Below are positions 10,947-57,107 of a stretch of DNA of 64,000 bases, in pieces (position 1 is the stretch's first letter; each line of letters begins with the position of its first letter). Origin of the DNA: Desulfosediminicola ganghwensis (GTDB lineage Bacteria; Desulfobacterota; Desulfobulbia; Desulfobulbales; Desulfocapsaceae); NCBI RefSeq assembly GCF_005116675.2, contig NZ_CP050699.1, forward strand, positions 3,805,001 through 3,869,000. The letters are read 5' to 3'. The translations under genes and the position numbers were made by a program. Under the pieces are notes generated by a model that had not been told where the DNA came from, ran no database searches, and saw nothing but the letters and a program-made list of their open reading frames with translations.

Positions 10947-11023
10947 TGGCGGGGCCGACGAGACTCGAACTCGCGACCTCCGGCGTGACAGGCCGGCATT
11001 CTAACCAACTGAACTACGACCCC
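10947..11023 (-). tRNA. tRNA-Asp(GTC), copy 1
   Basis: The minus strand gives a full cloverleaf with acceptor GGGGTCG/CGGCCCC, anticodon GTC in the loop CTGTCAC, T-arm GTTCGAG, and an encoded CCA end. Confidence 0.95.
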
Positions 11024-11054
11024 AGTAATGACGCTTGACGCTCTGTCAAATTTT

Positions 11055-11130
11055 TGGTGGGCGGAACAGGGCTTGAACCTGTGACCCTCGGCTTGTAAGG
11101 CCGATGCTCTCCCAACTGAGCTACCCGCCC
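11055..11130 (-). tRNA. tRNA-Val(TAC), copy 1
   Basis: The minus strand gives acceptor GGGCGGG/TCCGCCC, anticodon TAC in the loop CTTACAA, T-arm GTTCAAG, and an encoded CCA. It lies 31 bases upstream of tRNA-Asp on the same transcript. Confidence 0.95.
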
Positions 11131-11148
11131 CGCGTCAGCGTGAGAGAC

Positions 11149-11177
11149 TATTTACCAACTTCCCCCTGACCAGTCAA
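11149..11177 (-). promoter_or_regulatory. Promoter of tRNA pair 1
   Basis: The minus strand carries TTGACT, a 17-base spacer and TAAATA, followed by a GC-rich stretch before tRNA-Val. That is a sigma70-type promoter with a discriminator suited to stringent control. Confidence 0.75.
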
Positions 11178-11262
11178 GCAAATAAAAAACAAATGTTTAG
11201 CAATTGATAATAATATATGACACACCTGCTTTTATCAGGAAAAAGCTATGAACAAGGGCAAC

Positions 11263-11300
11263 AAAAAAAGGGTTACAGTCTTATTGACTGTAACCCTTTT
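11263..11300 (-). terminator. Terminator of tRNA pair 2
   Basis: Same GGGTTACAG/CTGTAACCC hairpin with T-tract on the minus strand, in the second repeat unit. Confidence 0.85.
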
Positions 11301-11307
11301 ATCGTAC

Positions 11308-11384
11308 TGGCGGGGCCGACGAGACTCGAACTCGCGACCTCCGGCGTGACAGGCCGGCATTCTAACCAACTGAACTACGACCCC
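11308..11384 (-). tRNA. tRNA-Asp(GTC), copy 2
   Basis: Sequence appears identical to copy 1, displaced by 361 bases. Confidence 0.95.
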
Positions 11385-11415
11385 AGTAATGACGCTTGAC
11401 GCTCTGTCAAATTTT

Positions 11416-11491
11416 TGGTGGGCGGAACAGGGCTTGAACCTGTGACCCTCGGCTTGTAAGGCCGATGCTCTCCCAACTGAGCTACCCGCCC
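11416..11491 (-). tRNA. tRNA-Val(TAC), copy 2
   Basis: Sequence appears identical to copy 1, displaced by 361 bases. Confidence 0.95.
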
Positions 11492-11509
11492 CGCGTCAGC
11501 GTGAGAGAC

Positions 11510-11538
11510 TATTTACCAACTTCCCCCTGGCCCGTCAA
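11510..11538 (-). promoter_or_regulatory. Promoter of tRNA pair 2
   Basis: Minus-strand TTGACG, 17-base spacer, TAAATA, at the same position as in copy 1 with small changes in the spacer. Confidence 0.75.
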
Positions 11539-11623
11539 GCAAATAAAAAACAAATGTTTAGCAATTGATAATAATATATGACACACCTGCTTTTATCAGG
11601 AAAAAGCTATGAACAAGGGCAAC

Positions 11624-11661
11624 AAAAAAAGGGTTACAGTCTTATTGACTGTAACCCTTTT
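11624..11661 (-). terminator. Terminator of tRNA pair 3
   Basis: Same hairpin and T-tract in the third repeat unit. Confidence 0.85.
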
Positions 11662-11668
11662 ATCGTAC

Positions 11669-11745
11669 TGGCGGGGCCGACGAGACTCGAACTCGCGACC
11701 TCCGGCGTGACAGGCCGGCATTCTAACCAACTGAACTACGACCCC
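11669..11745 (-). tRNA. tRNA-Asp(GTC), copy 3
   Basis: Sequence appears identical to copies 1 and 2. Confidence 0.95.
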
Positions 11746-11776
11746 AGTAATGACGCTTGACGCTCTGTCAAATTTT

Positions 11777-11852
11777 TGGTGGGCGGAACAGGGCTTGAAC
11801 CTGTGACCCTCGGCTTGTAAGGCCGATGCTCTCCCAACTGAGCTACCCGCCC
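11777..11852 (-). tRNA. tRNA-Val(TAC), copy 3
   Basis: Sequence appears identical to copies 1 and 2. Confidence 0.95.
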
Positions 11853-11870
11853 CGCGTCAGCGTGAGGGAC

Positions 11871-11899
11871 TATTTACCAACTTCCCCCTAACCCGTCAA
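11871..11899 (-). promoter_or_regulatory. Promoter of tRNA pair 3
   Basis: Minus-strand TTGACG, 17-base spacer, TAAATA. The repeat similarity ends shortly upstream of this promoter. Confidence 0.75.
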
Positions 11900-12215
11900 G
11901 CAAATAAAGTGCGATTTAATTTAAATCCCACAATTAATTATAGCCGCCGTGAATACAATGTAAAGGCAGACAAAACATGAATCGCTTTAACTCATCCCTA
12001 TCCCATTGTGGTACCGATAAATACTCATAATATCAAAGGGCATGCTCTGTTCGAACCAGATCGAAAAACACAAAAAATAAAGCCCCTGCCGGGTAAACTG
12101 CTACCTTTACCCCTGATTACATTCTGACAACTTACTCAATTAATTAGAGACCGGAATGATTTTGACAGGACTGCCTATTATTTGAATGTGACGAGAAGAA
12201 TAAAAGACAAGAAAC
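11900..12215. other. Spacer between tRNA pairs 3 and 4
   Basis: AT-rich sequence without a supported gene. It replaces the short linker that separates pairs 1 to 3. Confidence 0.4.
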
Positions 12216-12253
12216 AAAAAAAGGGTTACAGCCATAGTGACTGTAACCCTTGA
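12216..12253 (-). terminator. Terminator of tRNA pair 4
   Basis: The hairpin GGGTTACAG/CTGTAACCC recurs with a different loop and a T-tract on the minus strand. Confidence 0.85.
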
Positions 12254-12260
12254 ATTGTAC

Positions 12261-12337
12261 TGGCGGGGCCGACGAGACTCGAACTCGCGACCTCCGGCGT
12301 GACAGGCCGGCATTCTAACCAACTGAACTACGACCCC
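12261..12337 (-). tRNA. tRNA-Asp(GTC), copy 4
   Basis: Mature sequence is the same as the other copies. The surrounding DNA has diverged. Confidence 0.95.
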
Positions 12338-12368
12338 AGTAGTGACGCTTGACGCACGGTGAAAATCT

Positions 12369-12444
12369 TGGTGGGCGGAACAGGGCTTGAACCTGTGACC
12401 CTCGGCTTGTAAGGCCGATGCTCTCCCAACTGAGCTACCCGCCC
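12369..12444 (-). tRNA. tRNA-Val(TAC), copy 4
   Basis: Mature sequence is the same as the other copies, with diverged flanks. Confidence 0.95.
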
Positions 12445-44492: not shown

Positions 44493-45409
44493 ATGAAGGC
44501 AAAAGATTCCAAACGTTTTGAAATCCTTTACGATCGGCACCTGAAAAAGCTTACGCTTCAAGGCAAGAGTCAGGCAACTATCAGCGCCTATGCCCGGGCT
44601 GTTCGTCGTCTTACCGAACATTTTGATTGTTGCCCAGATCAACTGTCGGTGGAGCAGCTCGAAGATTATTTTACCCGTCTGGTAGAAAACTATTCCTGGA
44701 GTACGGTAAAGCTCGACAGGCTCGGCCTGATGTTCTTCTGGAAGCACGTCCTGGAGCAGGACTGGCAATGGCTCAATATCGTCAAGCCACCAACTGTGAA
44801 AACAATCCCGGATATCCTTACTAGAGAAGAAGTTGCCTTACTTGTTCACAACACGCGCAAACTCCGTTACCGGGTCTTTCTCTTTACTACTTACTCCATG
44901 GGGTTGCGTTTACAGGAAGCACTTTCTTTACAGATCGGAGATATCGATGCCAATCGCAGACGGGTACATATCCGCAGAGGCAAAGGACATAAAGATCGTC
45001 TGGTTCCACTGCCTGATCGAACCCTGAAGGCATTACGCATTCTCTGGCAGGATCATCGCCATCCCAAGCTGCTTTTCCCAAACTATAGAGGCTCTGCTGA
45101 AACCATCATCAGGGCAACCTCTCACATGAACATCGGTTCCACCCAGCAGGCCATGAAAGCGGTGGTTGCAGCCTGTAACATTAAAAAAAAGTCTCCATCC
45201 ACTCCCTCAGACACAGCTTTGCCACCCACCTCCTCGAAGCGGGTTTAAGCCTTCGCCACATCCAGGAACTTCTCGGGCATTCAAGCCCCACAACCACTGC
45301 CCGTTACGCCCAGCTCACCTACACCGCGGAAAAGGATAGCATTGCCACCATAAACGAGCTGATCAATTCCATGGAGCTGAACCCAACGAGGAAGCAACAT
45401 GGACATTAA
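44493..45409 (+). CDS. Tyrosine recombinase made by predicted -1 frameshifting (IS91-associated)
   Basis: Frame 0 (44493 to 45248) encodes the N-terminal SAM-like domain and the first catalytic motif [14 protein letters not shown], but ends before the remaining active-site residues. At 45183 to 45191 the sequence ATT AAA AAA AAG holds a canonical A_AAA_AAG slippery heptamer. Slipping by -1 continues as [18 protein letters not shown] (HxxR), [12 protein letters not shown] (His and catalytic Tyr) to the stop at 45407. The product would be about 305 residues. Its end overlaps the transposase start by 11 bases. A simple indel mutation is the alternative. Confidence 0.7.
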
Positions 45410-50647: not shown

Positions 50648-50779
50648 CGATAACGTGGAGCTAACAGGTTGCTGGCACCCGTGAACTACGCAATAAAATC
50701 ATGCTTTTGATATAGCACAAAAGGTTTTAAGAACGAATCGGTAGCCTGACAGCAATCCTTGTTGAGCGTTTTGTTATGC
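50648..50779 (-). repeat. attC-like recombination site A
   Basis: On the minus strand it starts with the core GCATAAC, which overlaps the stop codon of the HEPN-like gene, and ends with CGTTATC. The arms pair with isolated unpaired bases: CTCAACAAGGATTGCTG against CAGCAACCTGTTAG. Core, pairing and extrahelical bases are the signature of integron attC sites. Confidence 0.7.
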
Positions 50780-51295
50780 ATTTTTTTCTTTTATTTCTAG
50801 AAATTTTATATTTTGAACAATTTCTTCGAAGAGGCAATATTCTGGTCCTTTTACCGTGTCCCAATTGGTACCAATATTGTTAAGTCTGAAATAAGTACCA
50901 AACTCCATGTACGCACGATGGTTGCTGAGTTTAAATAGTGCCTTTTCTGTTTTTTCTAGTAATTGTAAGTGTTCGGCAATGTCGAAATCCTGGATTATTT
51001 GCGGAAGTTCATGCGCTAGTATATTTCTGTGTTTTCTTAATGCTTGAATGGTCATTACGTCTTCTGCATCTATTGCTTGCATGAAGTCACGTAGATAAAG
51101 AAGTGACGCTTCAAATTTGTTTTTGTGCCTAGATAATACGTCTTGTTTGTATGATTTGAATGGCATACCTTCGTCGAAGGTCACATTTTTGTAAAATGTT
51201 TCGATTGGATTGACAATCATTCCTTTTGCCAACTCAAACGCGACCAAAATAAAGCCTGCATACGTAAGTGTTTGGGTTATTTTTTCTTCAGTCAT
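50774..51295 (-). CDS. HEPN-like cassette protein
   Basis: The 173-residue helical protein has the HEPN motif R-x4-H in LRKHRNILAHELP (Arg90, His95). Its stop codon lies inside the core of attC site A, and attC site B lies just upstream, so it is the sole gene of a mobile integron cassette. HEPN proteins often act as RNases in toxin or abortive-infection systems. No obvious antitoxin partner (such as a nucleotidyltransferase) is adjacent. Confidence 0.75.
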   Translation of the reverse strand: MTEEKITQTLTYAGFILVAFELAKGMIVNPIETFYKNVTFDEGMPFKSYKQDVLSRHKNKFEASLLYLRDFMQAIDAEDVMTIQALRKHRNILAHELPQIIQDFDIAEHLQLLEKTEKALFKLSNHRAYMEFGTYFRLNNIGTNWDTVKGPEYCLFEEIVQNIKFLEIKEKNA

Positions 51296-51302
51296 TATTA
51301 TT

Positions 51303-52031
51303 CCGACGCATAATCGGGATAGGGAGGAACCTCACGGCTCCCCTCCTCCCACACCACCGGGCATACGGATCACGTACCACGGCGGTTCGGTTGATTGTTT
51401 TGACATTATTGCCAACCGGAGCGTCGATACATTCTCTCAAGTGTAGATTTCTCCTGGTCTAGAGGGATGTTCATCACACTCAAATTAATACTGCACTCCT
51501 CTCTTCCGTTCTGGCCTTCAGTGGGTGAGCCCTCCCGGCTTTTCTATTCACCGGGCTCGTTTCCTGACAACCGCTTCCGATTGCTTTCACCTACTATGCC
51601 TTCTGCTGACTTCTCCTAAACGGTCGGAATTGATTACTCGCATCCCAGCCAATTTCCGCTGCACGCAGCTTCCCAGAGCAATTCGAGAGACCTCCCGAGG
51701 TAAGACATGAAACTTTCATCGCGTAAACGCCGGATTTATAAAACACACCCAAGCGCAGATGGAGGACTTCGCGGTCACGTGCCCGCTCGTCCCGAGTGTG
51801 TCACACCTCATATCCGGTTCCTGTTCGTCGCCCCGCGACTTTGAATTGGGCTTCCTCCAGACAACACCTCGCGATGATGCCCTTGCCCTTCTTCTAACCT
51901 TCGGCTCTGTTTAACCTGGTAAGAGAACTTACACCTCTCTAGTTTCATGCCATGCCCGGCACACACGCCGCGCTCTGCGGCAAATTTGGAGCGTAGCGGA
52001 AAATTTGTCCGACAGCAGCGCCTTGTTAGCT
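51303..52031 (-). repeat. attC-like site B, split by the intron
   Basis: The left half (52031 to 51965, minus strand) reads AGCTAACAAGGCGCTG, a stem-loop with AAATTT arms around CGCTACGCTCC, then GCAGAGCGCGGCGT. The right half (51312 to 51303) begins TATGC. Joined they give the core GTTATGC. The site follows the Mrr-like gene and precedes the HEPN-like gene. Confidence 0.72.
51313..51964 (-). ncRNA. Group IIC-like intron lacking its reverse transcriptase, inserted in attC
   Basis: On the minus strand the 652-base segment begins with GTGTGCC and ends with CCCGAT. Conserved bacterial class C blocks are present: CTTACCTCGGGAGGTCTC, GAAGTCAGCAGAAGGCATAG, and near the 3' end a domain V hairpin with the catalytic AGC in GGGAGCCGTGAGGTTCC. 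The reading frame that should lie in domain IV is almost absent. Only a C-terminal scrap (about GTACGTGATCCGTATGCCCGG) remains. Removing the segment restores GCGGCGTTATGC, an attC core. Splicing ability cannot be judged by eye. Confidence 0.75.
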
Positions 52032-52038
52032 TTTGACA

Positions 52039-52839
52039 CTAATACAATCTCATCCATTGCAAGATGTCATTGTAATCTTTGAGAGATATATCCCACGTGC
52101 TCGGGGCTTGGTTTTGTACAAAATCCACTGCTCCACTAGTAAAACTTGATGTTGTAGCGAGTATCACCTTGTTTGGCGCGCCTACAGTATTCTTGACACC
52201 ATGCAACGCTCTTACAATCTCAACGCCAACCTTATTCTCTGGAGCATACCTTTTACATTCGATGAAGTATTTAGTGTCTATACCAAGATCATTTCTATGT
52301 ATTGCGATTATGTCTTTACCACCATCCCTTGTTTTTGCAGTCAATGTTACTTCAAAACCCTTCGCTCTAAATATTTCAGCGATAATTTCCTCAAACTCTC
52401 TTGGTGTTAAAGAATGTATGTGCTGCGGGTTTTGACTCAAAAACCTTATTAAGTCAGGAATATTTGCCCTGATAAGGTTGATATCTGTAATAATACGACT
52501 TTCAGGAACTATTATTTCAGGTTCAGGGAAAGTATAAATAGCTTCATCATCAAGATGGGTTATATATGGTTCATTTGAACAAGATGCACCATTCGAATTG
52601 TTAATAACATAACTCAGAAAATCGATTGGATATTCTGTAGCGTCAAAATCCAAAGTAATTTCACTATGGCACCTTGGGCAATTGAATTCAAAGAGGAGCT
52701 GATAATTATTTTGAGCTCCCATCCCATTCTCTTTGTAATCACCTCCATAACACTCAATACTGAAATCTGAAACATTATTATTTTGGATATCTCCACAGTT
52801 ATCACATGCAGAGGTAATCACTCCGTCAAAAGTCCACAT
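52039..52839 (-). CDS. Mrr-type restriction endonuclease with a zinc ribbon
   Basis: The 266-residue cassette protein has two CxxC pairs (C12/C15 and C54/C57) that likely bind zinc in the N-terminal domain. The C-terminal Mrr_cat PD-(D/E)XK domain follows: LTPREFEEIIAEIF, GFEVTLTAKTRDGGKDIIAI (Asp176), YFIECKRY (Glu194, Lys196). Mrr-like enzymes restrict foreign, often modified, DNA. The stop is followed within 10 bases by attC site B, so this is a cassette-borne nuclease. Confidence 0.85.
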   Translation of the reverse strand: MWTFDGVITSACDNCGDIQNNNVSDFSIECYGGDYKENGMGAQNNYQLLFEFNCPRCHSEITLDFDATEYPIDFLSYVINNSNGASCSNEPYITHLDDEAIYTFPEPEIIVPESRIITDINLIRANIPDLIRFLSQNPQHIHSLTPREFEEIIAEIFRAKGFEVTLTAKTRDGGKDIIAIHRNDLGIDTKYFIECKRYAPENKVGVEIVRALHGVKNTVGAPNKVILATTSSFTSGAVDFVQNQAPSTWDISLKDYNDILQWMRLY

Positions 52840-55571: not shown

Positions 55572-55861
55572 GATGTATACCTCCTTGGTTATGGTGAGGC
55601 ATACTGGAACATGAATTTATAGGACTGAAAAGATGGGGTTTATTGGTCGCTTACCGTAGATGACGATAACAGGAATAGTATAAAGTTGCCGTTGTCCTAT
55701 CACAATCAAACCTTATCAATATTAACTTCAATTCTGACCATTTTTTTTCTGCAAGATAGATTTGCAATAATGCCTGCCAAGCAACACTACGCTGTGGCAT
55801 TGATTTCTCCTCTCTGATAACCGAAAATTACAAAGCATTGGGAAAACTGATTGCGCGATAA

Positions 55862-55928
55862 GACAAGACCAACCTGTTGTAAAACAGGGACGGAGAGCCA
55901 CGGGTCTCTATTTGATAGCCGAGTTGCC
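55862..55928 (+). promoter_or_regulatory. GEMM-I riboswitch (cyclic dinucleotide class)
   Basis: The first stem CCTGTT-GTAA-AACAGG (55873 to 55888) carries a GNRA-type tetraloop. It is followed by GGACGGAGAGCCACGGGTCT, an AT-rich loop and AGCCGAGTTGCC, the arrangement of c-di-GMP-I/GEMM aptamers, closest in memory to Geobacter examples. The ligand may be c-di-GMP or 3',3'-cGAMP; the discriminating base cannot be assigned by eye. It lies 55 bases upstream of the secreted protein gene. Confidence 0.82.
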
Positions 55929-55953
55929 TTTTAATGAGGTGGTTCGGTTTTTT
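55919..55953 (+). terminator. Riboswitch expression-platform terminator
   Basis: CCGAGTTGCC pairs with GGTGGTTCGG (using G-U pairs) across a 9-base loop, followed by six Ts. The left arm is the 3' strand of the GEMM aptamer, so aptamer folding and termination exclude each other. This predicts that ligand binding turns the gene on. Confidence 0.78.
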
Positions 55954-55982: not shown

Positions 55983-57107
55983 ATGAAAACACTTTCTACT
56001 ATGGCCAGTTGCATCAAACAACGACTCTTTGCGACAACCTTGATGGCAGTACTTTTGACACTACTATTGGATTCTGCAGTCTTGGGAGAGTATTTAGAAG
56101 TAGATTTATATCCACTTTACACAGAAGACTACAATCTGTTTGACCATGAATATAGAGGATTTTTTGACTATTTTGAGCAAGACCACATCACTATTCCCGA
56201 CCTGCCTGGGGCAACCTTTTACGTCAAGTCAAAGAACCATACAGGGCCTCACGTGTTGTCTTCTACCCTGGAAGGCACCGAGAGTTTCAAGATTCCTATT
56301 GACGAACCAGGTGTGTCCAAAATTTATATGTTAGGCACGGGTACTTATTTGGCATCGTCATTTGGCCATAGTAGCCTCTGGTGCGAGGACTTAAATCATT
56401 TTTCCTTCACCCTTTCCTATTCTGATGGCGCTGAGGAAGAGGTATTTCCGGTTAACACACTCACTGGACTTTCACAGTGGAGTGACATTCTCCATGGATA
56501 CATGTACGGCTATAGTGGCATAGCAGTGGGCCATTTTCCGGCGTCTGAATGGGGTCACTATCACCTTTACGAAATAGCCGTAGATAATCAGAAAACGATT
56601 ACTGCAATAACTATGAACGACAAGTCAGGAGGCACCTATGATGTTGGTGATTACACCATACTGGCAATGACTCTTGAGGTAATTTCAATCCCAGTAGAGG
56701 TGGATATTAAACCTGGTTCTTGTCCGAATCCGTTAAATACAAGACAGAAGGGGATATTACCTGTCGCAATTTTAGGCACTGAGGATTTTGATGTAACTAC
56801 TATAGACCCTGAGTCTGTTCGATTGGTGGGGGCTGCCCCACTTCACTGGTCAATGGAGGATGTTGCCACACCATATGAAGATATCATGCATGGTTGTGAT
56901 ACTCATGCCTGCACCGAGTTACGATATGATGGCTTCATAGATCTCACTTTGAAGTTCAATGCTCAGGAGGTAGTCGCCGCCATTGGTGAAGTAGAGGATT
57001 ATGAGTGTCTGATCCTCGAACTTTCTGGAAACCTGAAAGATGAATTTGGAGGAACTTCTTTTGAAGGTGAGGATTTTGTGTTTATCCTGAAGAAGAACAA
57101 AAAGTAA
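55983..57107 (+). CDS. Secreted protein controlled by the GEMM riboswitch
   Basis: The 374-residue product has a signal peptide (LFATTLMAVLLTLLLDSAVLG). Residues about 35 to 235 are a beta-rich domain with several aromatic and aspartate residues, without a recognised family. Residues about 240 to 370 contain VDIKPGSCPNPLNTRQKGIL, PVAILGTEDFDVTTIDP and DGFIDLTLKFNAQEVV, a module I recognise from many secreted proteins of Deltaproteobacteria and Planctomycetes but cannot name. Riboswitch control suggests an extracellular surface or matrix role tied to cyclic-dinucleotide signalling. Confidence 0.85.
   Translation: MKTLSTMASCIKQRLFATTLMAVLLTLLLDSAVLGEYLEVDLYPLYTEDYNLFDHEYRGFFDYFEQDHITIPDLPGATFYVKSKNHTGPHVLSSTLEGTESFKIPIDEPGVSKIYMLGTGTYLASSFGHSSLWCEDLNHFSFTLSYSDGAEEEVFPVNTLTGLSQWSDILHGYMYGYSGIAVGHFPASEWGHYHLYEIAVDNQKTITAITMNDKSGGTYDVGDYTILAMTLEVISIPVEVDIKPGSCPNPLNTRQKGILPVAILGTEDFDVTTIDPESVRLVGAAPLHWSMEDVATPYEDIMHGCDTHACTELRYDGFIDLTLKFNAQEVVAAIGEVEDYECLILELSGNLKDEFGGTSFEGEDFVFILKKNKK

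Follow-up and report, generated by a model that had tools for sequence, protein, structure and literature searches.

How does a group II intron without a reverse transcriptase (RT) come to lie exactly within the core of an integron attC site, and what would its presence mean for the cassettes on either side? The question is raised by a 652-nt element in the chromosome of Desulfosediminicola ganghwensis, a bacterium whose kinship points to the Desulfobulbales. The element lies in the 64,000-nt stretch of contig NZ_CP050699.1 analysed here (the window, positions 3,805,001 to 3,869,000), in whose coordinates the features of the locus, all on the minus strand, are compiled below in the 5′ to 3′ order of that strand.

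52039–52839, minus: upstream cassette gene with an Mrr-type nuclease domain, 266 aa (ORF; PF04471, 90.7 bits)
51965–52031, minus: 5′ exon with attC R″ AGCTAACAAGG, stem and IBS1 GCGT (sequence; stem; similar uninterrupted attC sites)
51313–51964, minus: group IIC intron without RT, 652 nt (ends set by comparing it with the 19 further elements extracted; matches to RF02001, RF01998 and RF00029)
51705–51878, minus: most of domain I, with the EBS1 loop ACGU (RF02001, 130.1 bits; EBS1 by position)
51537–51650, minus: domain II–III region with the conserved TCAGCAGAAGGCATAGTAG block common to relatives (RF01998, 30.2 bits, gathering threshold 35)
51393–51520, minus: short domain IV, RT-less, with a 22-codon mini-frame from ATG (approximate limits)
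51313–51387, minus: domains V and VI (RF00029, 26.3 bits, gathering threshold 40; fold and covariation)
51306–51312, minus: 3′ exon, remainder of the R′ core, TATGCGT (sequence)
50774–51295, minus: downstream cassette gene on the intron's strand, 173 aa (ORF; no match in the Pfam search)

Identity and Ribozyme Domains

The initial annotation had described a group IIC-like intron of 652 bases with the ends GTGTG...CCCGAT and had proposed covariance models as a check. The first base of the intron is G51964 (GTGTGCCGGGC) and the last T51313 (...TATCCCGAT), giving the ends GTGTGCC...CCCGAT between the exons ...GAGCGCGGCGT (5′) and TATGCGTCGG (3′). Domain I matched the Rfam model RF02001 over its entire length (positions 1–170 of 170; E 1.7e-26), and the same model was matched by the RT-bearing introns of the plasmids pOXA436 and pPp47 with 117.0 and 123.9 bits; since annotated RT-bearing introns of class IIC are matched by it, the model appears to cover class C. 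The matches to RF01998 and RF00029 follow in the correct order and strand, both below gathering. For domain V this has to be seen against the RT-bearing relatives, which score low as well (38.1 bits for pOXA436, gathering 40; pPp47 unlisted at E ≤ 0.5), so that the low score is a habit of the clade and not a sign of decay.

Domains V and VI fold into the expected hairpins (−39.7 kcal/mol, z −3.65), which none of 200 shuffled sequences equalled. In an alignment of 12 sequences, 90.6% of 320 cells hold standard pairs, as opposed to 42–52% with slid partners, and 10 of the 28 pairs have changed on both sides. Fold and covariation reveal a CGC triad, which class C introns carry in domain V according to PMC7923331, together with a two-base bulge and a directly following domain VI. 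The target has class C features too: an IBS1 (GCGT) facing EBS1 ACGU, a T as IBS3, and an attC stem upstream. The stretch 51313–51964 is thus confirmed, by sequence criteria, as a complete group IIC intron.

The attC Site and the Strand of Insertion

The intron divides the R′ core of an attC site as GCGT/T (halves GCGGCGT/TATGC) between two cassette genes that share its strand; the 266-aa Mrr gene ends 7 nt upstream of attC, and the 173-aa gene starts 17 nt downstream of the intron. The attC half on the 5′ side folds into a stem of 18 bp, in whose 5′ arm three bases bulge out, albeit of unremarkable energy (z −1.61; 12 of 200 shuffles as good). Extra bases on an attC stem mark the R″/L″ arm. 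Since the bulged arm and the gene order agree, the intron is placed at R′ in the top strand of attC. The site accordingly displays R″ and R′ cores, an imperfect stem, one of whose arms carries extra bases, and the end of a cassette gene next to it, with an R″ that matches the consensus only in part. A home-made attC scan was unselective (64 matches in the window vs 50–72 in five shuffles) and missed the rejoined attC site of the window.

Among 58 genomes searched, similar attC halves occur in four others. The site in a genome of the same genus (L192) is 88% identical over 69 nt and continues uninterrupted through CGGCGTT, as does one in the same family (L193, 85%), while the halves at L194 and L195 lack this continuation. 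Because the L192 and L193 sites are attached to other cassettes, they are equivalent and not orthologous empty sites. The placement given in the initial annotation, exactly in the attC core with halves that rejoin upon removal of the intron, is thereby borne out, with two relatives carrying a similar uninterrupted site.

Closest Relatives and Target Recognition

A plasmid search matched 136 of 72,556 records, none covering 80% of the query. The best two of those examined are RT-bearing introns of pOXA436 (NZ_KY863418.1) and pPp47 (NZ_MG516912.1). Both interrupt a class 1 integron on the cassette strand; the attC sites entered, those of aadA2 and aac(6')-Ib4, are split at GCGT/T and ACGT/T. In a core tree of 19 elements, which left out one element lacking the conserved block (L183), the window intron and these two are split from the other 16 by a branch with 100/100 support; identity amounts to 76–79% in domains I–II and to 88–90% in domains V–VI. 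The three introns have EBS1 ACGU in common. The plasmid introns differ from that of the window in their RT of 441–444 codons, a shorter domain III, and their location in drug-resistance integrons of Enterobacterales plasmids.

EBS1 and IBS1 of the window intron pair fully, with one G-U. Full pairing was found in 15 of 18 introns and a single mismatch in three (G042, G057, G192), and shuffled partners reached the observed total in a fraction of 0.0003 of 20,000 trials, a significance inflated by sequence kinship and obtained with EBS1 loops hand-picked from regex candidates, two of the 20 elements having been dropped (L183 among those omitted). Its EBS1 ACGU, its entry into R′ in cassette orientation and its clustering with pOXA436 and pPp47 place the window intron in a clade of IIC introns entering the top strand of attC. 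EBS1 (ACGU vs ACAA/ACCA) is tied to which of the two attC strands an intron enters.

Along these lines, the same-strand orientation, which had been singled out for comparison with published cases, is real but, within its clade, not unusual. Canonical IIC-attC introns share with the window intron the class, the attC target and recognition through IBS1/EBS1; they enter the other strand (bottom) and the other half of the attC core, at TTGT/T with its different IBS1, and point opposite to the cassettes. The closest RT-bearing introns found target the same position in R′ and likewise follow the strand of the cassettes, and one IIC intron of Enterobacter cloacae is described in PMC7923331 as lying in the attC top strand and as not being IIC-attC. 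This intron (Rodriguez-Martinez 2012, as cited there) resembles that of the window in class, strand and orientation to the cassettes, the likeness resting on the description. As these cases share it, the orientation is not new; it represents a known, little-described kind that, to judge from the sequences compared, is typical of the clade.

Other full-length matches to the window intron were found neither in 257 genomes of the order, with two candidates scored per genome, nor in E. coli genomes. At the 3′ end the best match, with 95% identity over 85 nt, comes from an element of the same clade in genome G195, which is mostly deleted and retains a C-terminal RT remnant.

Absence of a Reverse Transcriptase

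Domain IV of the window intron comprises 128 nt as (approximately) delimited, and domains III–IV together 198 nt; the corresponding part of the two plasmid introns measures 1401 and 1403 nt. Stop-free sense stretches of the intron reach at most 68 codons. The earlier remark that the frame in domain IV is nearly gone was apt: the domain holds the 22-codon mini-frame, with no recognisable similarity to RTs. Because no RT remnant was recognised in it (blastp-short returned matches of 5–14 residues, at chance level), we infer rather than observe a deletion of the RT from domain IV. A weak resemblance between 'STLERM' and the N-termini of RTs, noted by eye only, was discarded. With complete ribozyme domains and no encoded protein, the element is an ORF-less intron.

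Such introns are usually, though not by definition, accompanied by a related RT encoded within their host genome. The host chromosome was searched as one 5.65-Mb contig (97.9% complete), plasmids outside this contig being beyond the scope. Neither TIGR04416 nor PF00078 detected an RT gene in it, with controls in named genomes that worked, and the RT protein of a relative, a query without a positive control, found no match. TIGR04416 matches are present in all three genomes of the same genus. A draft genome of the same genus (G002) has contigs that end inside near-identical IIC introns at three sites (5′ ends on contigs C60, C67 and C81; 3′ ends on C20, C31 and C58), a sign of recent multiplication; C20 and C31 retain C-terminal RT remnants 5′ of domain V.

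Other Introns of the Host Chromosome

When 150 of 370 first-look candidates were scored, RF00029 matched at five places of the host chromosome, the window intron included. Two further introns are of class IIC, at 1705066 (705 nt) and 3403143 (712 nt), and two have a domain I of the RF01999 type (~1703127 and ~4110893). The suggestion of looking for a related full-length intron in this genome therefore led to four other introns, two IIC and two of another type, none of them with an RT and none a full-length relative. For an intact parent of the window intron this genome offered no candidate, the matches, in two further RT-less introns, all being partial. None of the five introns holds a sense ORF of at least 80 codons; all five are RT-less and lie in attC contexts, in a contig in which no RT was found. 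The introns at 1705066 and 3403143 are antisense to the flanking ORFs, at TTGT/T and TGGT/T, and are by their sequence features of the canonical bottom-strand IIC-attC kind as laid out in PMC7923331. A weak RF02001 match at 4826878 has no domain V nearby, and an isolated intron 3′ end lies at 1698664.

The two RT-less introns of the RF01999 type (L014:2629–3275, minus, ~1703.1 kb; L015:2894–3336, minus, ~4110.9 kb) lie on the cassette strand, within the inner attC stem after GCTCGC. The second departs from the first after CACACGGTGA, by eye, and looks mosaic.

RT-less IIC Lineages in the Order

Twenty elements with clear ends were extracted, a set that represents the catch of searches and regexes and not a census. 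Twelve of them lack an RT; they measure 641–870 nt and come from six genomes, namely the host (G000, three), G049 (four), G189 (two), and G057, G087 and G173 (one each). Seven bear an RT, one of these partial. The remaining element (L183:1784–3705, minus, genome G004), evaluated as an RT-bearing element and rejected, carries an FMN riboswitch and ribB in place of the remainder of the intron, enclosed by the first hundred or so IIC bases and an intact domain V/VI end. One RT-less element (G049_C16) has no RF02001 match and no EBS1 loop, and an RT-less intron of this genome (L096:2349–2814) contains a 29-nt repeat, CAGGTAAGCGAGG..., three times; inspection by eye shows comparable stretches in further G049 introns.

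The RT-less domain IVs fall into related sets. In the set termed B1 (the host introns at 1705066 and 3403143 and both G189 introns) they are 82–85% identical between genomes and sites, the G189 copies 99%, and the domain IV of G087, from another family, aligns with them; in the set B2 (four of G049, one each of G057 and G173) identity is 81–94% across two families. The 5′ exons, and hence the insertion sites, of B1 and B2 elements differ. Homologous RT-less domain IVs in several families and at different sites therefore suggest spread as non-autonomous elements, with an RT acting in trans; the simplest reading is that it was the RT-less forms that were mobilised.

B1 was rejected as a single clade for the core, in which the 1705066 intron joins an intron that bears an RT (100/99); by its domain IV it belongs with 3403143 and G189; as core and domain IV group differently, the elements are mosaic, with segments exchanged. 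A group of six in the core tree has support of 86/97 only. The RT-less label requires three changes on this tree (3–5 in bootstrap trees), a number as low in 10 of 500 shuffles. RTs are present in G057 and G173, and partial RT matches in G087; G049 with its four RT-less IIC introns yielded none in the RT search, and G189 with its two only an RT fragment of 17.8 bits, below the cut-off. Contig 68 of G189 is the same sequence as LADS01000050.1 of Desulfobulbaceae bacterium BRH_c16a, a member of the host's family; the Desulfobulbaceae are placed in the order Desulfobulbales.

A search for the exact RT-less spacing pattern gave no viral contigs and, among genome contigs (near-host records possibly left out), two stretches, both of Desulfobulbaceae bacterium BRH_c16a. 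Being limited to lengths near those of the window intron and B1, it says little about other RT-less forms. The window intron itself is, on present comparisons, a single copy of a lineage other than B1 and B2.

Proposed Origin and Consequences of the Insertion

The explanation favoured here, with a probability of roughly three quarters for the whole, is that the window intron belongs to the clade whose target is R′ of attC on the top strand, which is that of the cassettes. Entry would have occurred by reverse splicing, EBS1 ACGU pairing with IBS1 GCGT beside the attC stem-loop, and the RT would have been lost by deletion in domain IV, in this intron or in its parent. Given its cassette-strand position, the intron should be transcribed together with both flanking cassettes, and it is predicted to splice out and reunite attC in the transcript. 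At the DNA level it keeps attC split and should thereby tie one cassette to the other against IntI; a block on cassette recombination, as already surmised in the initial annotation, is a reasonable inference. The intron would not move by itself and would need the RT of a related intron arriving in the cell. An outward promoter of the kind reported for S.ma.I2 (PMC8876359) was considered and set aside, as the window intron contains no promoter-like site (three in the region vs 3.3 expected).

The initial annotation had left a choice between dependence on an RT in trans and a fossil. The first part stands, inasmuch as movement would require an RT from elsewhere. A dead fossil, in which the RT was lost after insertion and the ability to splice has gone, would fit the single copy, the genome in which no RT was found, the low domain V score, and the partly deleted clade relative in G195 with its C-terminal RT remnant. 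For the RNA, however, this reading is disfavoured, because the ribozyme core scores as high as or higher than that of the RT-bearing relatives (domain I 130.1 vs 117.0 and 123.9 bits) and domains V and VI are well formed, their structure having been kept through sequence change; the EBS1/IBS1 pairing is intact as well. Taken together, a fossil appears rather doubtful. One may also consider an active non-autonomous element that was already RT-less when it reached this attC site by means of another intron's RT, as envisaged for B1 and B2. The kinship of the B1 domain IVs between the host and G189, their alignment with that of G087, the different 5′ exons, and the kinship of the B2 domain IVs across two families give this some substance. 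Against it, the window intron is the sole RT-less member of its lineage found in the 257 genomes of the order (two candidates each), in plasmids and in E. coli genomes, and the present host contig yielded no RT, so that such a history seems unlikely for this copy. That the stretch is no intron at all and resembles one by chance could be argued from the two Rfam models that remain below gathering; the RF02001 E-value, ends shared with relatives, uninterrupted sites, and the covariation in domains V and VI leave this reading a negligible chance.

Beyond the window intron, it is tempting, if rather improbable at present, to regard the RT-less IIC introns of the order in general as integron satellite retroelements, i.e. 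RNA-only parasites of ~640–870 nt that spread between attC sites and genomes via borrowed RTs and persist in RT-free chromosomes. The window lineage would then occupy the cassette strand, able to splice from cassette transcripts while locking neighbouring cassettes in the DNA.

Relation to Known Systems

ORF-less introns, IIC-attC introns and top-strand insertion into attC are each already known. A literature search, within whose reach most subscription papers, the key ones on IIC-attC introns included, did not fall, turned up no account of attC sites occupied by RT-less IIC introns. The introns of Thermosynechococcus elongatus (PMC2882425) offer a parallel in their deleted domain IV ORF and good EBS/IBS pairing, and for some of the ORF-less ones mobilisation by an RT in trans is established there; they differ in class, in having driver RTs in the genome, and in lacking an integron. 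The intron C.te.I1 of Clostridium tetani is likewise ORF-less in a genome without a related RT (PMC4424553), and lies in a surface-layer protein gene (PMC3919590), in contrast to the attC contexts of the five host introns.

In this context one should recall that, according to a 2015 review (PMC4424553), bacterial ORF-less introns nearly always share the genome with a related RT, C.te.I1 being the sole known exception. The host chromosome with five RT-less introns, G049 with four, and G189 with two and a weak RT fragment have to be set against this rule as stated there. A later survey counted 888 of 13,041 introns without RT (PMC8919778), and RT-less introns as such are therefore not rare. The window intron provides a naturally small IIC ribozyme, useful for structural work, and the system allows a test of whether integrons serve as reservoirs sustaining non-autonomous introns.

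Other Features of the Window

An integrase-like gene at 44547–45319 (plus) and at six further places of the genome has an in-frame TAA in its C-terminal part in all seven copies, and another five-copy set shows the same kind of break. At 10950–12444 a pair of tRNA genes is repeated four times in tandem, with starts 361, 361 and 592 nt apart. A c-di-GMP-I riboswitch (55858–55931, 47.9 bits) directly precedes a 374-aa ORF at 55983–57107.
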